Shown: positions 9,133 through 38,840 of the stretch, piece after piece
How positions within the stretch are numbered: the first letter of the stretch is position 1
How the letters are laid out: the number at the start of each line of letters is the position of its first letter
Origin: Sphingobacteriaceae bacterium
Lineage (GTDB): Bacteria > Bacteroidota > Bacteroidia > Sphingobacteriales > Sphingobacteriaceae
Length of the DNA: 53,302 nucleotides
Reading direction: 5' to 3'
NCBI GenBank assembly: GCA_947459195.1
Contig: CANHCS010000004.1
Span: 1 to 53,302 of the forward strand
Notes under the pieces: generated by a model
What the model was told of the DNA's origin: nothing
What the model saw: only the letters and a program-made list of their open reading frames with translations
Database searches by the model: none
Made by a program: the position numbers and the translations under genes

Positions 9133-9188
9133 ATTGAAATTTACGGTGCTGCCAGCTGCACTTACTTCCAAATTCCTGATTTTTCGAT

Positions 9189-9196
9189 TAAGTTTG
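9189..9196 (+). promoter_or_regulatory. PASTA-rhodanese-mltG operon -7 box (TAAGTTTG)
   Basis: A perfect TAnnTTTG on the plus strand. The predicted transcript start is near 9201, 14 bases before the ATG at 9215. It lies downstream of the TTG at 9134, so that longer reading of the gene is unlikely. Confidence 0.55.
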
Positions 9197-9214
9197 AATT
9201 ATAATTACATACAG

Positions 9215-9982
9215 ATGAGTTCGTTCTTCTCCTACCTTAAAACCAAAACCTTTCGTAAAAACCTGTATTGGGCTTTAGGCTCTGTATTTGCCTTTTTACT
9301 AATCATTTTTTACAGTTTGAGATTTTACACACATCATGGCGAAGGCGTTCCGGTACCAAAGCTGAAAGGACTGCCTATTGAGCGAGCAATAGAATTACTG
9401 GAGAACCAAGGTTTTCGTTATCAAATTGATTCGGTTTACCAATTAGACAAAGAACCTGGCATAGTGATTGAACAAGATCCGGATCCAAATACGAATGTAA
9501 AACTGAATAGAACACTTTATCTTACCATCATCACTCGTCAGGCGCCCGACATCCGATTCCCTGAGATCAGCGGTAAAACTTATTTAGAGGTAGCCGCCAC
9601 CCTGAGTAATTATGGTCTCAAATTGGGTGACACAACTTATGTAAATGATGTGGCAAAAGATGTGGTGCTTGCTTTCCGTTTCAGGGGACGCGATCTTCAG
9701 GCCGGTAACTCTCTACCAAAAGGTTCTGTCATCGATCTGATCTTAGGGGATGGAAAAGGTGCCAGTGAAGTAGATATTCCAAACTTATTAGGCTTAACAC
9801 TCGGTGAAGCAAGAATGGCGCTCTTAGGCTCATCTTTGAAAATGGGAACCGTCAACTTTCAAGGAAGCGGCCGCGATACCATCAATTCGAAAATCATAAA
9901 ACAGTATCCGGCACCTACCGATTCCCTGAGTAAAGTGAGTATAGGAAGCAGTGTGAACGTAATTCTTTCTGGAGGAAAATAA
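9215..9982 (+). CDS. Membrane-anchored triple-PASTA protein
   Basis: A 255-residue protein with a short basic cytoplasmic N-terminus, one transmembrane helix (about 20-40, WALGSVFAFLLIIFY) and three consecutive PASTA domains filling the rest. Recognisable PASTA cores are VPVPKLKGLPIERAIELLE, FPEISGKTYLEVAATL and VDIPNLLGLTLGEARMALL. PASTA domains bind uncrosslinked peptidoglycan or lipid II and are usually tied to PknB-type kinases or penicillin-binding proteins; here there is no kinase or transpeptidase domain. The ATG at 9215 is preferred because the promoter box lies at 9189-9196. Its stop overlaps the next start (TAATG). The setting beside ddl and mltG supports a cell-wall sensing or scaffold role. 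Confidence 0.9.
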   Translation: MSSFFSYLKTKTFRKNLYWALGSVFAFLLIIFYSLRFYTHHGEGVPVPKLKGLPIERAIELLENQGFRYQIDSVYQLDKEPGIVIEQDPDPNTNVKLNRTLYLTIITRQAPDIRFPEISGKTYLEVAATLSNYGLKLGDTTYVNDVAKDVVLAFRFRGRDLQAGNSLPKGSVIDLILGDGKGASEVDIPNLLGLTLGEARMALLGSSLKMGTVNFQGSGRDTINSKIIKQYPAPTDSLSKVSIGSSVNVILSGGK

Positions 9983-29443: not shown

Positions 29444-30793
29444 TTAAAGGAGGAAATAACTGGCCATGCCCAATAGGAGCATGAAACCAAAAACATCGGT
29501 AAATGTGGTAATGATGATGGAAGAAGCCACTGCCGGATCGATCCCTACCCTTTTCAATAAAAGCGGTATGGCCGAGCCGGTCACACCTGCAATGATCAGA
29601 TTACCAGTCATCGCCAGGAAAATAACTAAACCTAACATGGGATTTTGGTCATAAATAACTGCTACCGATAGCACGACCAAACCGGTTACCCCACCATTAA
29701 TCAAACCTACTGTAAACTCTTTTAAAACAGTTCGGTAAGCTTGATTATCGGTCAAATCGTTCAGTGAAATACGTCTTACCGTTACGGCCAATGCTTGGGT
29801 GGCTGCATTGCCGCCCATACCAGCAATCATGGTCATATAGCCGGCAATAATGCTCAATTTAGCAATGGTGCCGCCAAAGTGACGAATAACCGAGGCAGCC
29901 AAAAAAGCGGTCATTAAGTTTAAAATTAACCATGGCAGCCTACTTTTAACAGCTTCTTTCCAATTACCCGAGAGTTCCTCGTCTTCAGAAACCCCGGAGA
30001 TCTTCAAGATATCTTCGGTATTTTCTTCTTCCAATACGTCAATCACATCATCAAAAGTAATATGACCCAATAACTGCATGTTATCATCAACTACTGGTAT
30101 ACTGGTCAAATTATATTGAGAAATCAATCGGGCTACTTCTTCCTGATCGGTTTCTGCTTTTACGTATTCGAAATCAGTTTGTATTAGATCAATGATCTTG
30201 ATGCTGTTCTTTGATTTGACGATGTCTTTTAGAGAAACAATACCCATCAATAAATTATCATCATTCACCACATAAATGGTGTAGAACTCCTCCATCTCCT
30301 CAGATAGGCGGATCACTGCATCGAGGGCTTCTTTTTTGTTAGAATTGCTGTTCACCTTGATGACCTGCGTGTTCATCAAACCACCCGCCGTATCTTCGGC
30401 GTAGGTTAATAAGGTCCGGATATTGGAAGCATCCTCCTCATCGAGTTCGAGCAAAATCTCATTTTGCTGCTCCTCAGGGAGTTGGCTGATGATGTCTGTC
30501 GCATCATCGTAATCGAGTTCCTCAACAATTTCAGATCGTTTTTCCGGATTTAAATTTTCGAGGATCTTCTCTGGGTGACTTTCTGCATCCATCTCCGACA
30601 ATACATCGGAAGCTTTTTCAGCCGGTAGGATATTGATGATTCGATCGCGAGAATCCTGAGAGAGGCCCTCCAGCACGATGGCAATTTCGGAAGCATGGAA
30701 CTCTGCAAGCAATTCCTGGAGCGTTGCATCATCCGCTTCGAGCGCATCTTTGATGCGCAGCAAATCGTTTTTATCCAGCTCAAAAGATTGCAT
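29444..30793 (-). CDS. mgtE: Magnesium transporter MgtE
   Basis: A magnesium channel of the inner membrane gated by internal Mg. The 449-residue protein shows the full layout: N-terminal helical superfamily domain (to about 130) with repeated Glu/Asp motifs such as LDYDDATDIISQLPEE, paired CBS domains (about 135-255), a connecting helix and five membrane helices from about 285, with IAGMGGNAATQALAVTVR in the pore region. A TATTTTAG box ends four bases before the ATG. It is convergent with the response regulator. Confidence 0.96.
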   Translation of the reverse strand: MQSFELDKNDLLRIKDALEADDATLQELLAEFHASEIAIVLEGLSQDSRDRIINILPAEKASDVLSEMDAESHPEKILENLNPEKRSEIVEELDYDDATDIISQLPEEQQNEILLELDEEDASNIRTLLTYAEDTAGGLMNTQVIKVNSNSNKKEALDAVIRLSEEMEEFYTIYVVNDDNLLMGIVSLKDIVKSKNSIKIIDLIQTDFEYVKAETDQEEVARLISQYNLTSIPVVDDNMQLLGHITFDDVIDVLEEENTEDILKISGVSEDEELSGNWKEAVKSRLPWLILNLMTAFLAASVIRHFGGTIAKLSIIAGYMTMIAGMGGNAATQALAVTVRRISLNDLTDNQAYRTVLKEFTVGLINGGVTGLVVLSVAVIYDQNPMLGLVIFLAMTGNLIIAGVTGSAIPLLLKRVGIDPAVASSIIITTFTDVFGFMLLLGMASYFLL

Positions 30794-30842: not shown

Positions 30843-32942
30843 TTAGGGAATATTTGAAGATATAACTTGTATCCAGGCTTCGTTTTTCTTTAAAACATGA
30901 TACGGTAGTCCCAATGAACGAGCTTCCAACATCCATTTTTTGATTTTATAATCAGGATTGGTGCCATCAATCAATAAGCGTTTGAAGCTTACGCGGTCTA
31001 CTAAATCTTTAAGTTTTAAAACCGGATTGCCGCTCAAGAGCAAAATATCCGTTTTAATCATTTTGTTTAATGATTGACCGTTCATTTTAGCCCCCCACCT
31101 CATCACTTTAAAATTACCAAATTGCATCAAACCTTTTTGTTGGCAAAAAGCTGCTGAATAATAGGAAGCTCCGGGATCATGCCAGGTCATATATCTTGAT
31201 CCAAGATGTTCCAATGAAGGCTTAACAGAAAAGAGATAGGCTTTATCTTCCGGATTTAATTCGGTGACCAAATGAATCTTTTTACCATTAATAAAAGCGA
31301 TAGCACTGTTTTTACGGAGACTATAAAAAATGAGTTTTTGGGTAGCATTGGTACGGTACGCCACAAGGTTTAGACTCAATAAGAATAGTACTGAACAGAT
31401 CAATGCGGTAAACAGTAAAAATTTGTTTTTATAGAGGAATGCCAGCAACACAGAAAATACAATCAGGTACAGCAGCATCAATTGCCATTGATCGAACCAG
31501 ATTCCTTGCAGACTGGCAAATGGCATGGATTCTATCCATTGAAGAGCCTGATTAGTAAAAGTGATCAAGTGATAAAGGATGAGCCCCATTGGGTTCAAAA
31601 GAATGCCTAAGGGCAATAACAAAACAAATACTACTCCTAGATACATGATGAGCGTTACCGGAATGACAATCAAGAGGTTGCTGAGTAAGAAATACAGCGG
31701 GAACTGATGAAAGACATACATACTGAGCGGCGAAGTGATGATTTGAGCCGCAAGGGAAAGTGCCACATAAGCCCATGTGGCATCCAATATCTTATTGCTG
31801 AAATACATTTTTTCATAGATGATCGGATGGATGAATACCAAACCAAATACTGCCAAATAGGATAATTGAAAACCAATATCGAAGAGATACAAGGGATTGA
31901 TGAGCAGTAAAATAAAAGCTGAAACAGCTAATAAATTATAAGCATTCATAGATTTATTGACCGCTTTACCGATTATCACAAAACTCAGCATGAGAGCTGC
32001 CCGGTTTACAGATGGAGAGAATCCGGTGAGCAAGGCGTAAAACCAAACCAAAAAAATGAGAAGAAAAAGCTTTGCAATCCTTAGATTTTTATGTTGATCC
32101 AGCGGCTTAAGAAGGAAGGAAAATAATAAAAAGAAAAGCGCCACATGCATGCCAGATACGGAAAGCACATGCATGGTACCGGTTTTAGCATAAGCATTTA
32201 AAATCTCGGGACTTAAATCGGCACGGTAACCCATTATTAAAGTGGAGGCCAAAGAGGCAGCTTCCTGTCCATTAATATGAGTTCTAAACTGATCGACAAT
32301 TTTTCGCCTTAGGTTCAAGGCAAAAGCCATGATTTGATTTCCATACCCACTGTCTATTTTCAAAGTTTCATGCTCATTGATGAAACTTTGATGCAGTATT
32401 TTTCTAGTTTTTAAATAATATTTGAAGTCGAATTCATCAGGATTGTAGGGCGGTTCTACTTCCTGATAAGCAGCTGGAACCAGCATCATATCACCATATT
32501 TGATTTGAGATGCTCGATTGGTAACCACTTTAAGGGCAATCAATAAATTACCTTTCACCGTAACACGATCTGCAAAATGAACCCTGGCTTCAAAGCGTAA
32601 TATATCATTCCTGAGTGTTGGCTCTGAGTTTACACTAATGAGTAAGGATTTAGAACGGAATTTAGCAAAGTAAGACAGTTCTGATCCTGGTAACTGACGA
32701 CACGTGATCTGATATGCAAATAAAGCTATCAGCAGATGGGCTATCAACCCGATATAATGATTAAATAAATAAAGCCTTCGCTTTTGATAATGGAGCAGAG
32801 CACCCCAAAAAGCAACAATTAGGATCCCGCTGATGATCAACAATAATAAATTGGCATGATTGAAAGGATAATACCAAGCAAGAACAATTCCTAATATCAA
32901 TGGAACCAATAAACGAACGAATGGGATTTCGCCTTTGTACAT
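30843..32942 (-). CDS. comEC: ComEC/Rec2 family DNA-uptake membrane protein
   Basis: The inner-membrane channel that brings single-stranded DNA into the cytoplasm during natural transformation. The 699-residue protein has N-terminal helices, a soluble DUF4131-like segment (about 90-200), and the competence membrane domain from about 210, with the hallmark GTMHVLSVSGMHVALFFLL and GFSPSVNRAALMLSF. The C-terminal soluble part (about 540-699) has the position of the usual metallo-beta-lactamase domain, but no HxHxDH motif is visible, so it is probably not an active nuclease. It follows the HHH-barrel gene by 4 bases in a three-gene operon. Confidence 0.93.
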   Translation of the reverse strand: MYKGEIPFVRLLVPLILGIVLAWYYPFNHANLLLLIISGILIVAFWGALLHYQKRRLYLFNHYIGLIAHLLIALFAYQITCRQLPGSELSYFAKFRSKSLLISVNSEPTLRNDILRFEARVHFADRVTVKGNLLIALKVVTNRASQIKYGDMMLVPAAYQEVEPPYNPDEFDFKYYLKTRKILHQSFINEHETLKIDSGYGNQIMAFALNLRRKIVDQFRTHINGQEAASLASTLIMGYRADLSPEILNAYAKTGTMHVLSVSGMHVALFFLLFSFLLKPLDQHKNLRIAKLFLLIFLVWFYALLTGFSPSVNRAALMLSFVIIGKAVNKSMNAYNLLAVSAFILLLINPLYLFDIGFQLSYLAVFGLVFIHPIIYEKMYFSNKILDATWAYVALSLAAQIITSPLSMYVFHQFPLYFLLSNLLIVIPVTLIMYLGVVFVLLLPLGILLNPMGLILYHLITFTNQALQWIESMPFASLQGIWFDQWQLMLLYLIVFSVLLAFLYKNKFLLFTALICSVLFLLSLNLVAYRTNATQKLIFYSLRKNSAIAFINGKKIHLVTELNPEDKAYLFSVKPSLEHLGSRYMTWHDPGASYYSAAFCQQKGLMQFGNFKVMRWGAKMNGQSLNKMIKTDILLLSGNPVLKLKDLVDRVSFKRLLIDGTNPDYKIKKWMLEARSLGLPYHVLKKNEAWIQVISSNIP

Positions 32943-32946
32943 ACCT

Positions 32947-34971
32947 TCAAAATTGATACCTGATTTGAAACTTCAATTCAGAAGCTTTATTTCCTTTAAT
33001 TTCACTCAAACCGGTTCCAATATGATCCAGATTACTGTATCGGTATGAAACATAATTCAACCAGCAGTCTAATCCTTTCTGCAATCGATAGCGTAAATTG
33101 GCGAGGAACTGCATTCCTTCATTTTGAAAAAGCCTGATCGAAGTTTGGTACAATACATCCGGCTGGTAAGTGTATATCCTCGAATCGTAAGAGGGCACTT
33201 TAAATAAAGTGAAACGACAATTAAAACTGAACTTACTTTGTAGAGGTTTATATTGAAGTTCCTGATAAGTCAAATAGCTCCTTTCTAATTTAGTTTGGAT
33301 GGTCTCCAGTCGATTTCTGATTTGTATCATTTTATTGACCCAATACCTCAAATCCAATCGAATTCTTTGAGATTTTATCGTTTCCAAAAAATGAAAGGTC
33401 TGCTCTTGATCATCATTTTCTTGTTTTTGTTCTATTTTATAAAGTCCGATTACCTGCAAACGCTTGTTGGGCTGAAAGCTCAATTGGCTTAACATTTCGA
33501 AGCCATCGGATGGAGCATCCACACCATATTTCAACCATGGAAAAACAAAATAATCCACAAAGTAGCTCCACTCCCATTTGCGATCAAATTTGAAATTGAG
33601 TACTGCATAAAAACCATTTTCGTTGATAGATGAACTGGATTCTGATAAAGCAGCATTAAAAAAAGAATGGTAATTTTTGGGATAATTTCGATAGTGTAGA
33701 CCGAGTGATAATTTAGGACTCAAGCTGGTCAATAATCCAGCTAAAAATGCCGTGCCTCCTGAAGAACTATGAGCGATTTCCGAAAATAAATAGGAATTAC
33801 TAATGGTATAATTTGCGGATAAACCATAATTATTTAATGTTTTTCCATGGAAATCAAACAAATTATAGGGCTGATCTCCTGAGGCAAAAGGTTGATCAAA
33901 TGCAGAATGAAAGGCAATCAATCCTAAATTTAAATGACTTCTCTTCCACTCTAAGATTCCTCCAAAGCTTTTGTATTTTAAATTTTTCTGGTGCGCTATT
34001 TCGGTAGCTGTCCGGTGTAAACCAGTTAAAATAATGGAACCAATTTCCATGTTCTCATCCAGAGAAGCATCCAATTTTCGTATAGAATAAAAAGAAGTGA
34101 ATTTGATAGCACCAAAACCGATGGTATTGGCTAAACCTCTAAAAAATAATCCCTCATTAAAAGATGAATATGGTTTGAGACCAACTTCAGGCTTCACCAA
34201 GGTATGAACAGCAGAACTTTTACCGAAGCTCAAGCCAGACCATAAAGTGAGGCCTTGTCCGAATTGCAAATCATAATCGCCAATGACCAATTTTTGAAGC
34301 GGCCCAATTGATTTTAATGAAATATTAGCGGCTCGGTAATCGAAAAGACCTGCATGCTTAGAATAAAAGTATTCGCCTGGATCTTTCTCCAGATTTATTC
34401 CCGCACTGATGTGCTTATTCAATACATATCGGTACCTGATTAACAATTGCTGGGGAGAACCCTCGTACCTTGAGTGAGAGCTATCAGCGACTTGGTAACC
34501 TGCTCTCTTTTGCAAATCTTGTTTAAACCTGATAATTAGGTCGTGTTTCCCATCTATTAAATCAGTAATTTCTAGACCAATTAATGAATTTGGTAAACCA
34601 ATACTCAAAAATGGAAGCAAATGCTGAATATCATTTAAATCAAAATGTTCGATCGCCTGCAACTCTAACAAATCAGCTAAAACGCCATTTTCCTTTATGT
34701 GATTCAGCAAAGAGCTGATTTGTAAAGGTGATAGTAACATAAATTCTTTCAGTTCAGCTTCTGATGCAGTATTTAGATTAAGTGGGTGAGAGCGGTAGTA
34801 ATTGATCCGGTCCATCATCTCCGCATAATCGAAATTTTCGTCAGCAATATGAGATAAGGACTCGATCAACTCAGCCACTTGTTGCTCGGTATTTTGCTGT
34901 GCGATAATTGTCTTTGAAATCATTATCACCATCAAACAACAACAGAAAAATTGACTAAGATTAAAATTCAT
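32947..34971 (-). CDS. Helix-hairpin-helix domain fused to predicted outer-membrane beta-barrel
   Basis: A 674-residue exported protein. A signal peptide (about 1-25, ending near IIAQQ) is followed by a ComEA-like helix-hairpin-helix region (about 62-125) containing LNLNTASEAELKEFMLLSPL and LADLLELQAIEHFDLNDI. The rest (about 140-674) is rich in alternating amphipathic strands with aromatic residues (for example FRGLANTIGFGAIKFTSFY and LRYRLQKGLDCWLNYVSYRY) and ends KFQIRYQF with a C-terminal Phe, as in outer-membrane barrels. HHH domains of this type bind double-stranded DNA without sequence preference in ComEA. It lies between a PorV-like protein and comEC, with 11-base overlap and 4-base gap. 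Role in DNA uptake is inferred, not known. Confidence 0.85.
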   Translation of the reverse strand: MNFNLSQFFCCCLMVIMISKTIIAQQNTEQQVAELIESLSHIADENFDYAEMMDRINYYRSHPLNLNTASEAELKEFMLLSPLQISSLLNHIKENGVLADLLELQAIEHFDLNDIQHLLPFLSIGLPNSLIGLEITDLIDGKHDLIIRFKQDLQKRAGYQVADSSHSRYEGSPQQLLIRYRYVLNKHISAGINLEKDPGEYFYSKHAGLFDYRAANISLKSIGPLQKLVIGDYDLQFGQGLTLWSGLSFGKSSAVHTLVKPEVGLKPYSSFNEGLFFRGLANTIGFGAIKFTSFYSIRKLDASLDENMEIGSIILTGLHRTATEIAHQKNLKYKSFGGILEWKRSHLNLGLIAFHSAFDQPFASGDQPYNLFDFHGKTLNNYGLSANYTISNSYLFSEIAHSSSGGTAFLAGLLTSLSPKLSLGLHYRNYPKNYHSFFNAALSESSSSINENGFYAVLNFKFDRKWEWSYFVDYFVFPWLKYGVDAPSDGFEMLSQLSFQPNKRLQVIGLYKIEQKQENDDQEQTFHFLETIKSQRIRLDLRYWVNKMIQIRNRLETIQTKLERSYLTYQELQYKPLQSKFSFNCRFTLFKVPSYDSRIYTYQPDVLYQTSIRLFQNEGMQFLANLRYRLQKGLDCWLNYVSYRYSNLDHIGTGLSEIKGNKASELKFQIRYQF

Positions 34972-35758
34972 AGGAAAGCCCGATTTGTGAACCGAAACCC
35001 AGAGAATGCTGGCTAATGAAGGCTAAATCGAACTTGAAATTTTTAATAAACAAACCCAGACCGGCAGATTCTCTAATTGGATTCGTTTTAATCCCGGCTC
35101 TCAAAGTCAATGATTTAATCATTTGATAATCTAATCCCAGTTTTAGTGCGGCCTGGCTCACCGAGTTTTGTTCCAGCGCAGCTGCAATCATCAGCTGTTG
35201 ACTTACCGAATAAGCTGTGCCGAATTGGATACGTAAAGGCAGGGCCATAAAACTGAGGTTTTCACCAAAAGAGTGATTATTAAGATTACTTACATGCGCC
35301 CCCAGACTTAATAATGGACTCATTTTGTAAATCAACCCTGCATCAATGGAGTATGCCGAGGTTTTGCCATAAATACCAATACTTAATTGATGATAATGTA
35401 AAGCCAGTGCCGTAGCTATTTTAGGACCGAATGCACGCCCGAATGCAAAAGTTATTTCATGTTGTTTGTAAGTATCATAGCCATATCTGGAAAATCCGAA
35501 TCCAAGGACGTTTTGCTTGAAAGGTTTAGCCAAAATGAGCTTGGATGCAGAAATTTTTTGATCTAACAGTAATTTTTGATGGTCTAATGCCAAGGTAAAA
35601 CTGTCCACATCCAATAATCCAGCCTGATTTACGTTTAATGACCAGATATCGCCTATTGCAACACCTGCGTCTGCAATGGCTGTCATTCTCGCACCTGAAG
35701 GTGGCTGGGCATATAAACTTGCTGAAAACAAGATCAGGAATAGAGATGTTATCTTCAT
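34961..35758 (-). CDS. PorV/PorQ-like outer-membrane beta-barrel protein
   Basis: A 265-residue exported protein with a signal peptide (about 1-17, SASLYAQ) and a barrel-like pattern ending IGLSYEF. The start of the mature part, GARMTAIADAGVAIGDIWSLNVNQAGL, is typical of the PorV/PorQ/FadL-like family, in which A...GDxx....NPAGL-type segments recur (here NQAGL). PorV itself shuttles substrates of type IX secretion; the shorter relatives have no known role. It is first in the operon with the HHH-barrel gene (11-base overlap) and comEC, so it may assist or stabilise that barrel. A weak box TATATTTA lies five bases before the ATG. Confidence 0.82.
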   Translation of the reverse strand: MKITSLFLILFSASLYAQPPSGARMTAIADAGVAIGDIWSLNVNQAGLLDVDSFTLALDHQKLLLDQKISASKLILAKPFKQNVLGFGFSRYGYDTYKQHEITFAFGRAFGPKIATALALHYHQLSIGIYGKTSAYSIDAGLIYKMSPLLSLGAHVSNLNNHSFGENLSFMALPLRIQFGTAYSVSQQLMIAAALEQNSVSQAALKLGLDYQMIKSLTLRAGIKTNPIRESAGLGLFIKNFKFDLAFISQHSLGFGSQIGLSYEF

Positions 35759-35831
35759 TAAATTAAATATATTAAAATTAATTTAATTAATTAAATAGAA
35801 AATTATCGTTGAAAGATTGCGTTATATCAAT

Positions 35832-36250: not shown

Positions 36251-36910
36251 ATGAGAAAATTATTTCTGGGCCTCTCTTTATTAATGATGAGTATGGCCAG
36301 CTTCGCACAGCAAAAAATTAACGAAGGGGTAATCACTTACGCTCTTGAATGGAACGTTCCGCCTCAAGCACAAGCCATGGCTGCCAATTTACCTACTCAA
36401 ATCAATGTTTATTTCAAGGGAGATACCTCGAGTATGAAAATTGAGTCGCAAATGTTTTCTTCGAAAAGCATTTTAAATGTACCCAAAGAATATGAACGTC
36501 TTTTGTTGGACATCCCAATGATGGGTAAAAAATTCTCGGTAATCTTTAGCCCTGCAGATCAGGAAAAAATGTCGGAGATGATGCCTCAAATGACTTTAAA
36601 AGCTAGCAATGAGAGCAAAAGTTATTTAGGATATCAGGCTCAAAAATATGCTGTCAGCGAAAGTCGGACCAACAGTTCATTTGATGTTTGGTTTACTAAA
36701 GACGTTGAGATCGTAGCGAATCCGCTCAGTCGTTTTTATGAAAAATCTTATGGTTTCCCATTGGAATTTACTTCTTTTCAAAATGGGATGTCTGTGAAAG
36801 CATCCGTAAAAGAAATTCAATCTACTAAAGTACCTGTTGGCACTTTTGTTGCTGGTACGGATTATGAGGAAATCAGCTTAGATCAACTCATGCAAATGAG
36901 CGGCAGGTAA
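36251..36910 (+). CDS. Exported protein, GLPGLI/DUF4412-like
   Basis: A 219-residue secreted or periplasmic protein with a clear signal peptide (about 1-19, MASFAQQ). The mature part starts NEGVITYALEW, and has YFKGDTSSMKIES, SYLGYQAQKYAV and FDVWFTKDVEIVANP. The pattern G-x-I-x-Y at the start, then a strand pair and a F-W-[FY]-T segment resembles the GLPGLI and DUF4412 families common in Bacteroidota, of unknown function. It lies 44 bases after the hypothetical gene, and a hairpin separates it from the LTA-synthase-type gene. Confidence 0.7.
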   Translation: MRKLFLGLSLLMMSMASFAQQKINEGVITYALEWNVPPQAQAMAANLPTQINVYFKGDTSSMKIESQMFSSKSILNVPKEYERLLLDIPMMGKKFSVIFSPADQEKMSEMMPQMTLKASNESKSYLGYQAQKYAVSESRTNSSFDVWFTKDVEIVANPLSRFYEKSYGFPLEFTSFQNGMSVKASVKEIQSTKVPVGTFVAGTDYEEISLDQLMQMSGR

Positions 36911-36974: not shown

Positions 36975-38840
36975 ATGTATAAGCACCTGGCTGTTCTGCT
37001 TCGTTTTTTTGTTTTTTGGTTAACGGTCTTTTCCCTTGATCGTTTAGTTTTTGTGATCTATTTCAGAGAAAAACTTCATTTTAATCAGTTTTCAGAGTTT
37101 TTAGCACCCTTTTATCACGGACTGCGGCTCGATCTGTCAATGGCTGCTTATTTTTCTTTATTACCGCTCATTTTTTATTTGATCAAGTGGTTTTATCCGA
37201 AATTTCCGGCAAACGCGTTTTTAACGAAGGTTTACTTGATTTTTATTATTTTCTTATCGACTATCATTACGATCGTCAACTTGAATATTTACCGGGAATG
37301 GGGAACTAAATTCAATTACAGGGCATTGGATTTCGCCATTAATGCGCCCAATGAGGCATTGGCTTCCAGCGCTTCTTCCCCCCTGATGCTCTCTTCGGGC
37401 ATTTTTATCTTTTTATTGATTAGTTCGATTTGGCTCTCAAAATCAATCATCGTTTATCAAATACCTAATGACGATTTAAAATTACCGGTCAAGATTTTAA
37501 GTTCAATTATCATACTTGGCATTACTTTTTTATTCATTAGAGGTGGTTGGCAATTAGCTCCAATCAATCAAAGCATGTCGTATTATGATCAAAAGCCCAT
37601 TGCTAATCATGCAGCGGTAAACACCAGTTGGAATCTTTTACACGATATCAGCAAAAATTTATCTAATCAGAAGAATCCTTATTTATTTATGGATTCAAAA
37701 GATGCGAAGCAATTAGTAGCGAAACAATATCCTGATTTACCAAGAGCTGAGCGCTCTATATTGAATCAATCAAGGCCAAACGTAGTGCTCATTATCCTGG
37801 AAAGTTTCCATGCAGACTTGGTGGAAAGTTTGGGAGGTGAAAAGGGATTAAACCCTCAAATGGAGGAAATAATTGAGAATGGATTGCTTTTTAATCAGAT
37901 CTATGCCACGGGTGACCGAACTGATAAAGGTACCATCGCTATTTTGAGTGCCTTTCCGGCACAGGCTACCCGTAGCATCATCAAGGAAAACGGCAAACAA
38001 GAGAAATTGCCTTCTATTTCACAAATTTTTAAAAAAAATCAGTACCACACCTCTTTTTACTATGGTGGCGAAAGTGAATTTTTCGGACTGAAATCGTATG
38101 TATTGAGCCATGCTTATGAGCAATTGATTGATAAAAATCAATTCGAGCGCAAAGACATGAACTCTAAATGGGGTGCTTTTGATGAAAAGGTTTTTGAGCA
38201 GCAATTGAAAGACCTTAATCGAACACCTCAGCCCTTCTTTTCCACTTTGCTCACCCTCACCAATCACGAGCCATTTGAAGTTCCCGGAAAGCCTAAGTTT
38301 CCGCTGGATGAAGGCCCTAATTTGATCAGAAATACAGCTTTTTATACCGATTCATGCCTCGGAGCATATATCAAGGCCGCTCAAAAAACACCTTGGTACA
38401 AAAACACACTTTTCGTGGTCATAGCAGATCATGGGCATCGTTTACCCAGCAATAAATATGAAATTTGGCATCCACGCAGGTACCAGATACCCATGTTGTT
38501 TTTCGGAGAGGTACTCAAGCCCGAATACCGCGGCAGCCAAATTGGTAAAATAGGCGGGCAAACCGACTTAGCGAAAACCTTATTGAACCAGCTGGGAATG
38601 GAAAGTCAAAATTTCAAATGGAGTAAAGATCTATTCCATGAAAAAAGTATGGATTTTGCTTTTTACAGCTGGGATAATGGCTTTGGATGGGTAGATAAGC
38701 AGCAGTACATCAGCTTTGATAATGTAGGGAAAAATGTGATTTCTCAGAAAGGTCAAAAGCAAAATTCATCATCCAAACCAATTCTTAAACAAGGAAAAGC
38801 TTATTTACAAAGCGTTTATCAGGAATACCTTGATTATTAG
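36975..38840 (+). CDS. LTA-synthase/sulfatase family membrane enzyme
   Basis: An alkaline-phosphatase-superfamily enzyme with five transmembrane helices (about 5-30, 50-72, 82-104, 140-160, 172-190) and an outside catalytic domain (about 265-600). Active-site marks are NVVLIILESFHADLVE (metal-binding Glu276), ATGDRTDKGT (nucleophile Thr, about 316) and VIADHGHRLP (metal-binding Asp and His). Relatives transfer phosphoglycerol or phosphoethanolamine groups to envelope polymers or lipids; Bacteroidota lack lipoteichoic acid, so the real acceptor is unknown. It is 621 residues, normal size. Its stop overlaps the stop of the convergent Nudix gene. Confidence 0.88.
   Translation: MYKHLAVLLRFFVFWLTVFSLDRLVFVIYFREKLHFNQFSEFLAPFYHGLRLDLSMAAYFSLLPLIFYLIKWFYPKFPANAFLTKVYLIFIIFLSTIITIVNLNIYREWGTKFNYRALDFAINAPNEALASSASSPLMLSSGIFIFLLISSIWLSKSIIVYQIPNDDLKLPVKILSSIIILGITFLFIRGGWQLAPINQSMSYYDQKPIANHAAVNTSWNLLHDISKNLSNQKNPYLFMDSKDAKQLVAKQYPDLPRAERSILNQSRPNVVLIILESFHADLVESLGGEKGLNPQMEEIIENGLLFNQIYATGDRTDKGTIAILSAFPAQATRSIIKENGKQEKLPSISQIFKKNQYHTSFYYGGESEFFGLKSYVLSHAYEQLIDKNQFERKDMNSKWGAFDEKVFEQQLKDLNRTPQPFFSTLLTLTNHEPFEVPGKPKFPLDEGPNLIRNTAFYTDSCLGAYIKAAQKTPWYKNTLFVVIADHGHRLPSNKYEIWHPRRYQIPMLFFGEVLKPEYRGSQIGKIGGQTDLAKTLLNQLGMESQNFKWSKDLFHEKSMDFAFYSWDNGFGWVDKQQYISFDNVGKNVISQKGQKQNSSSKPILKQGKAYLQSVYQEYLDY

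Follow-up and report, generated by a model that had tools for sequence, protein, structure and literature searches.

The close packing of a PorV-like barrel gene, a gene joining a helix-hairpin-helix (HHH) domain to a long barrel-like region, and comEC raises the question of whether the middle protein passes DNA across the outer membrane, as a sequence-only reading of the window (the whole 53,302-nucleotide stretch analysed) had proposed, or serves another kind of transport. The broader topic is how competent bacteria that have no type IV pili bring DNA through their outer membrane. The window belongs to a Sphingobacteriaceae MAG of 1.8 Mb and 93.5% completeness, and a secretin search of this genome found none, in agreement with the expected lack of PilQ and in favour of a DNA pore of another type. 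The 674-aa HHH-barrel protein encoded between the PorV-like gene and comEC is named HHHB here; in the survey, G denotes genomes, f families, g genera and L loci.

The three genes lie on the minus strand exactly as first described. The open reading frames of the PorV-like protein (34961..35758, 265 aa) and of HHHB (32947..34971) overlap by 11 bases (34961-34971), and a gap of 4 bases separates the latter from that of ComEC (30843..32942, 699 aa). ComEC was identified by its Competence domain (PF03772, E = 6.4e-60) and DUF4131, with no call for a metallo-beta-lactamase domain. The MgtE-type Mg2+ transporter gene that follows comEC on the same strand after 49 bases (29444..30793) is unlikely to be an operon member, since just 3 of the 80 named loci have such a gene near HHHB. 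Upstream of the PorV-like gene, a weak promoter-like match (35802..35830, minus strand) agreed with the sigma-70 consensus at 10 of 12 positions; this consensus may not suit, as Bacteroidota promoters differ, and the region as a whole held fewer matches than its shuffles. The nearest public relative encodes the 674-aa protein with 86% identity (contig profile scan, 7-sequence alignment). Genes for a GLPGLI protein (36251-36910) and a sulfatase-family membrane protein (36975-38840) are often found beside the operon in Sphingobacteriaceae. The window also encodes a 282-aa PASTA-domain protein at 9134-9982.

The AF2 model of HHHB (57-sequence alignment, mean pLDDT 84.3, pTM 0.80) comprises, in this order, a signal-like helix (residues 5-24), helices at residues 27-61, the HHH helices at residues 71-121 and strands at residues 142-673. 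The DSSP elements of the model count 24 strands, which form the barrel region (residues 142-674; 32950..34548, minus strand) and run up to a final Phe. The barrel-like region of the sequence-only reading was thus modelled as a barrel, and HHHB is predicted to be a large outer-membrane barrel. The best PDB folds in Foldseek were the generic large barrels MtrB, FimD, BtuB and AlgE, all with low TM-scores (0.38-0.40 for MtrB). According to the strand alternation of the model, the inward positions carry 23 K/R and 21 D/E residues, a mixed lumen charge that does not favour DNA as cargo.

The HHH domain (residues 62-125; 34597..34788, minus strand) was matched weakly by HHH_3 in the window protein (residues 62-122, E = 0.0032, under the Pfam cut-off). 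It is considered real because 47 of 57 HHHB homologues match HHH_3, the best at 1.5e-10, and the family profile aligned with ComEA at residues 63-123 (E = 8e-5; PDB 8dss, 8dfk). The ComEA-like region had been correctly located, its fold being clear across the family. The DNA-binding hairpin residues, whose loss the sequence-only reading had named as counting against it, are missing: the sites of the ComEA G-h-G motifs read MLLSPLQI and EHFDLND, and the net charge of the domain is -7. Among the homologues examined, none kept G-h-G in the first hairpin and few lineages (f21, f23, f35) kept it in the second; the median net charge over 114 members was -2, with 10 members positive. HHHB thus has the fold of a ComEA-type DNA receptor, and neither the G-h-G hairpins nor the basic surface. 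Models of T2SS protein K (Pfam T2SSK_1st) matched the HHH region in 23 of the 57 members, and T2SS protein K employs the HHH fold within a protein complex. The HHH domain of HHHB probably serves protein contacts.

A ComEA-like protein of the organism is encoded elsewhere. A dedicated 300-aa protein on C38 of the same genome contains two HHH_3 stretches over threshold and a third module recognized by eye, is basic in overall charge, has an intact hairpin (KGIGPAFA) and scored above the NCBIfam cut-off for the ComEA repeat region, which rules out HHHB for this role. According to PMC8459023, the Riemerella anatipestifer protein RA0C_RS02645 is a periplasmic, transformation-essential HHH protein with three HHH domains; on that description it resembles the C38 protein, not HHHB.

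The product of the upstream gene yielded a confident 14-strand barrel in AF2 (pLDDT 91.6). Its best PDB folds were PorV (8gl6 and 6h3i; E = 2.1e-10 and TM 0.74 by query length for 8gl6), followed by FadL relatives. NCBIfam PorV_fam matched at E = 1.8e-14, under the curated cut-off, so that the protein combines the FadL-type barrel with the family signature of the PorV/PorQ superfamily and falls below the cut-off of the NCBIfam equivalog for PorV proper, the T9SS shuttle. In 59 of 80 named loci the gene immediately precedes HHHB, and it was adjacent to HHHB in 41 of 65 sampled genomes from many families, the open reading frames often overlapping. This conserved pairing agrees with the partnership that had been suggested for the two proteins, but the partnership is not universal, because the genes are non-adjacent in about one third of the SprA-positive and in all six SprA-negative genomes examined. 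In a Pedobacter subgroup (L039, L049-L051, L054-L058, L060, L066, L071-L073, L075, L076, L080), the HHHB-comEC junction is kept with no adjacent PorV-like gene, and the upstream positions are mostly taken by alaS and a MerR-type gene.

The best reading, which we hold to be about as likely as not, is a two-barrel transport complex in the outer membrane that is common among Bacteroidota and has HHHB as its large pore. Computation shows the gene order, the predicted folds, the conserved pairing, the lost hairpin motif and the distribution; the transport function, the physical contact of the two barrels and the part played by the HHH domain are inferred. The FadL/PorV-type partner would sit beside HHHB in the membrane, as PorV does with SprA and BamG with BamA; the solved SprA-PorV structures (6h3i, 8gl6) and BamA-BamG are precedents for such a pairing of a large barrel and a FadL-type one. 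The N-terminal HHH domain of HHHB, ComEA-type in fold, may now dock to a periplasmic protein or act as a gate instead of gripping DNA. The two genes became part of an operon with comEC in Sphingobacteriaceae; in other lineages they stand by themselves or beside porD. The low TM-scores of HHHB to known barrels weaken this reading, as does a genome in which HHHB decayed together with competence genes (see below).

HHHB was detected in at least 185 of 248 Bacteroidota genomes by a single-sequence search, some negatives of which are divergent copies, and in 168 of 197 Bacteroidia genomes by a barrel-only profile; it is single-copy in nearly all genomes throughout the phylum. ComEC was present in 244 and SprA in 191 of the 248 genomes. 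The initial absence of HHHB from f24, f20 and f19 proved to be a sensitivity artefact, as divergent copies were found, with a PorD-sized gene adjacent in f24 and f19. The profile search confirmed the absence from f3 and f4. The latter was taken as Flavobacteriaceae, since SprA of G021 matches that of Flavobacterium johnsoniae over its full length (4521 bits), and f3 is taken to be close to Riemerella, given that it carries an M949_1556-family lipoprotein whose name looks like a Riemerella locus tag.

The first alternative holds that HHHB is the ancestral outer-membrane DNA-uptake pore of Bacteroidota, handing DNA to a ComEA-like protein and on to ComEC, and that the RS04915/RS04920 receptor pair took its place in several lineages, among them Flavobacteriaceae and the Riemerella-like family. 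DNA uptake is a minority hypothesis, which we regard as rather unlikely; the identification of the gene itself is sound. The expected tracking of comEC held within a single family. comEC follows HHHB immediately, often with an overlap, in 47 of 80 named loci, nearly all of which belong to Sphingobacteriaceae, where the junction is close to general. Outside this family the genes next to HHHB are housekeeping genes, nearly all families keep HHHB although comEC is not adjacent, and tracking was rejected. Co-occurrence, the other sign of an outer-membrane competence channel, was likewise not found: 27 of the 29 HHHB-lacking Bacteroidia (20 listed, nine inferred as sampled handles outside the positives) keep an uninterrupted ComEC domain, the exceptions being a 0.5-Mb genome without one and G295, in which it is interrupted. 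About half have no RS04915 substitute, and HHHB-less genomes without a strong RS04915 match occur in the Sphingobacteriaceae genus g4 and in f56, f80, f81, f90 and f97. The degenerate hairpins, the acidic HHH domain and the separate ComEA-like protein speak against DNA as well. The fused protein as a DNA receptor or pore feeding ComEC is therefore weakly favoured by its barrel, its PorV-like partner and the Sphingobacteriaceae operon, and disfavoured by its hairpins and distribution.

Several observations nevertheless point towards competence. In G115 (L201, L202, L203), ComEC, DprA, the ComEA-like gene and HHHB are all broken, with HHHB reduced to a remnant, but SprA and the genes around it are intact; this looks like a recent loss of competence. 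Four f37 genomes without ComEC (G167, G207, G215 and G247) showed no HHHB, three of them re-checked by profile. Two of the f37 genomes were tested for HHH_3, which was missing or marginal. G033 and G091, two f2 genomes whose HHHB is intact, have dprA about 5 kb away from the PorV-like/HHHB pair, a linkage noticed after the fact. According to PMC8459023, RS02645, RS04915 and RS04920 of R. anatipestifer are transformation-essential proteins of a Bacteroidota species, RS04915 being an outer-membrane barrel. Flavobacteriaceae lack HHHB and have relatives of RS04915 and RS04920. Strong DUF5689 (RS04920-type) matches were found in 18 of 21 HHHB-negative versus 4 of 26 HHHB-positive genomes, and RS04915-type barrels in 14 of the 29 HHHB-negative and 34 of the 168 HHHB-positive Bacteroidia, associations that are uncorrected for phylogeny and in which f3 and f4 may represent one event. 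In f3 and f4, relatives of RS04915 and RS04920 were looked for beside comEC and not found there; they are located elsewhere. Most genomes inspected have the two genes side by side, often with a predicted nuclease; many Bacteroidia (L250-L269) have a conserved cluster that encodes an RS04915-like CarboxypepD_reg barrel, a DUF5689 protein of the RS04920 type and an Exo_endo_phos_3 nuclease. The consulted passages of PMC8459023 make no mention of a nuclease beside the transformation genes. The fuller claim, that HHHB with its PorV-type partner was an ancestral pilus-independent DNA importer displaced by the RS04915/RS04920 system in Flavobacteriaceae and relatives, appears unlikely to us.

According to the second alternative, the PorV-like/HHHB pair is a T9SS accessory in which the PorV-like protein would bring T9SS cargo to HHHB or take it away from there. 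The companion's membership in the PorV family suits this idea, as does porD, a T9SS gene identified by an NCBIfam equivalog over its cut-off, which is the divergent neighbour of the pair in most non-Bacteroidia loci (L170-L196) and thus in most deep lineages. Moreover, the PorV-like gene is adjacent to HHHB in 41 of 59 SprA-positive and in none of 6 SprA-negative genomes (Fisher p = 0.0016, few independent lineages). The SprA survey nonetheless rejected a tracking of T9SS by HHHB, which persists in f17, f11 and G002 without SprA and which the T9SS-rich Flavobacteriaceae (f4) lack although they have SprA. We hold such an accessory role to be quite improbable. Least probable of all is a channel for nutrients or polymers that has no link to competence or secretion and would scavenge nucleic acids or transport polysaccharides or lipids: generic large barrels as best folds and a FadL-type partner suggestive of hydrophobic cargo would fit, but no metabolic gene travels with HHHB, whose neighbours outside Sphingobacteriaceae are those housekeeping genes.

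The HHHB family is a phylum-wide predicted barrel that has no name in Pfam or NCBIfam, where the HHH domain alone is matched. Given the co-decay in G115 and the partly complementary distribution of HHHB and RS04915/RS04920, a deletion test would be worth doing. Should the DNA hypothesis fail, a two-barrel system that is near-universal in Bacteroidota and uncharacterised would still merit a function.

Among known systems, ComEA shares the HHH fold with HHHB, whose own HHH domain differs in being fused to a barrel, acidic and devoid of G-h-G, in a genome that encodes a genuine ComEA-like protein elsewhere. GspK also has an HHH domain, with T2SSK_1st in common with the 23 members mentioned above, but is an inner-membrane pseudopilin with no barrel. 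MtrB, FimD and BtuB belong to the same fold class of large outer-membrane beta-barrels; their TM-scores of 0.34-0.46, identities of 6-10% and lack of a common domain architecture set them apart. RS04915, a CarboxypepD_reg barrel with a length of about 900 aa, has no sequence relationship to HHHB. PorV (6h3i_F, 8gl6_F) resembles the companion in its 14-strand FadL-type fold and PorV_fam match (profile match to PDB PorV, E = 6.5e-6), whereas it is longer (about 367-400 aa versus 265 aa); the companion scored under the NCBIfam cut-offs for PorV, PorQ and PorV2 and is paired genetically with HHHB, not with SprA. BamG, matched weakly by 4 of 52 PorV-like members, differs in that no BamA is encoded at this locus. 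It is nonetheless like the PorV-like companion a FadL-family barrel accompanying a larger one, in its case BamA of the Bacteroidota BAM complex (PMC12611786).
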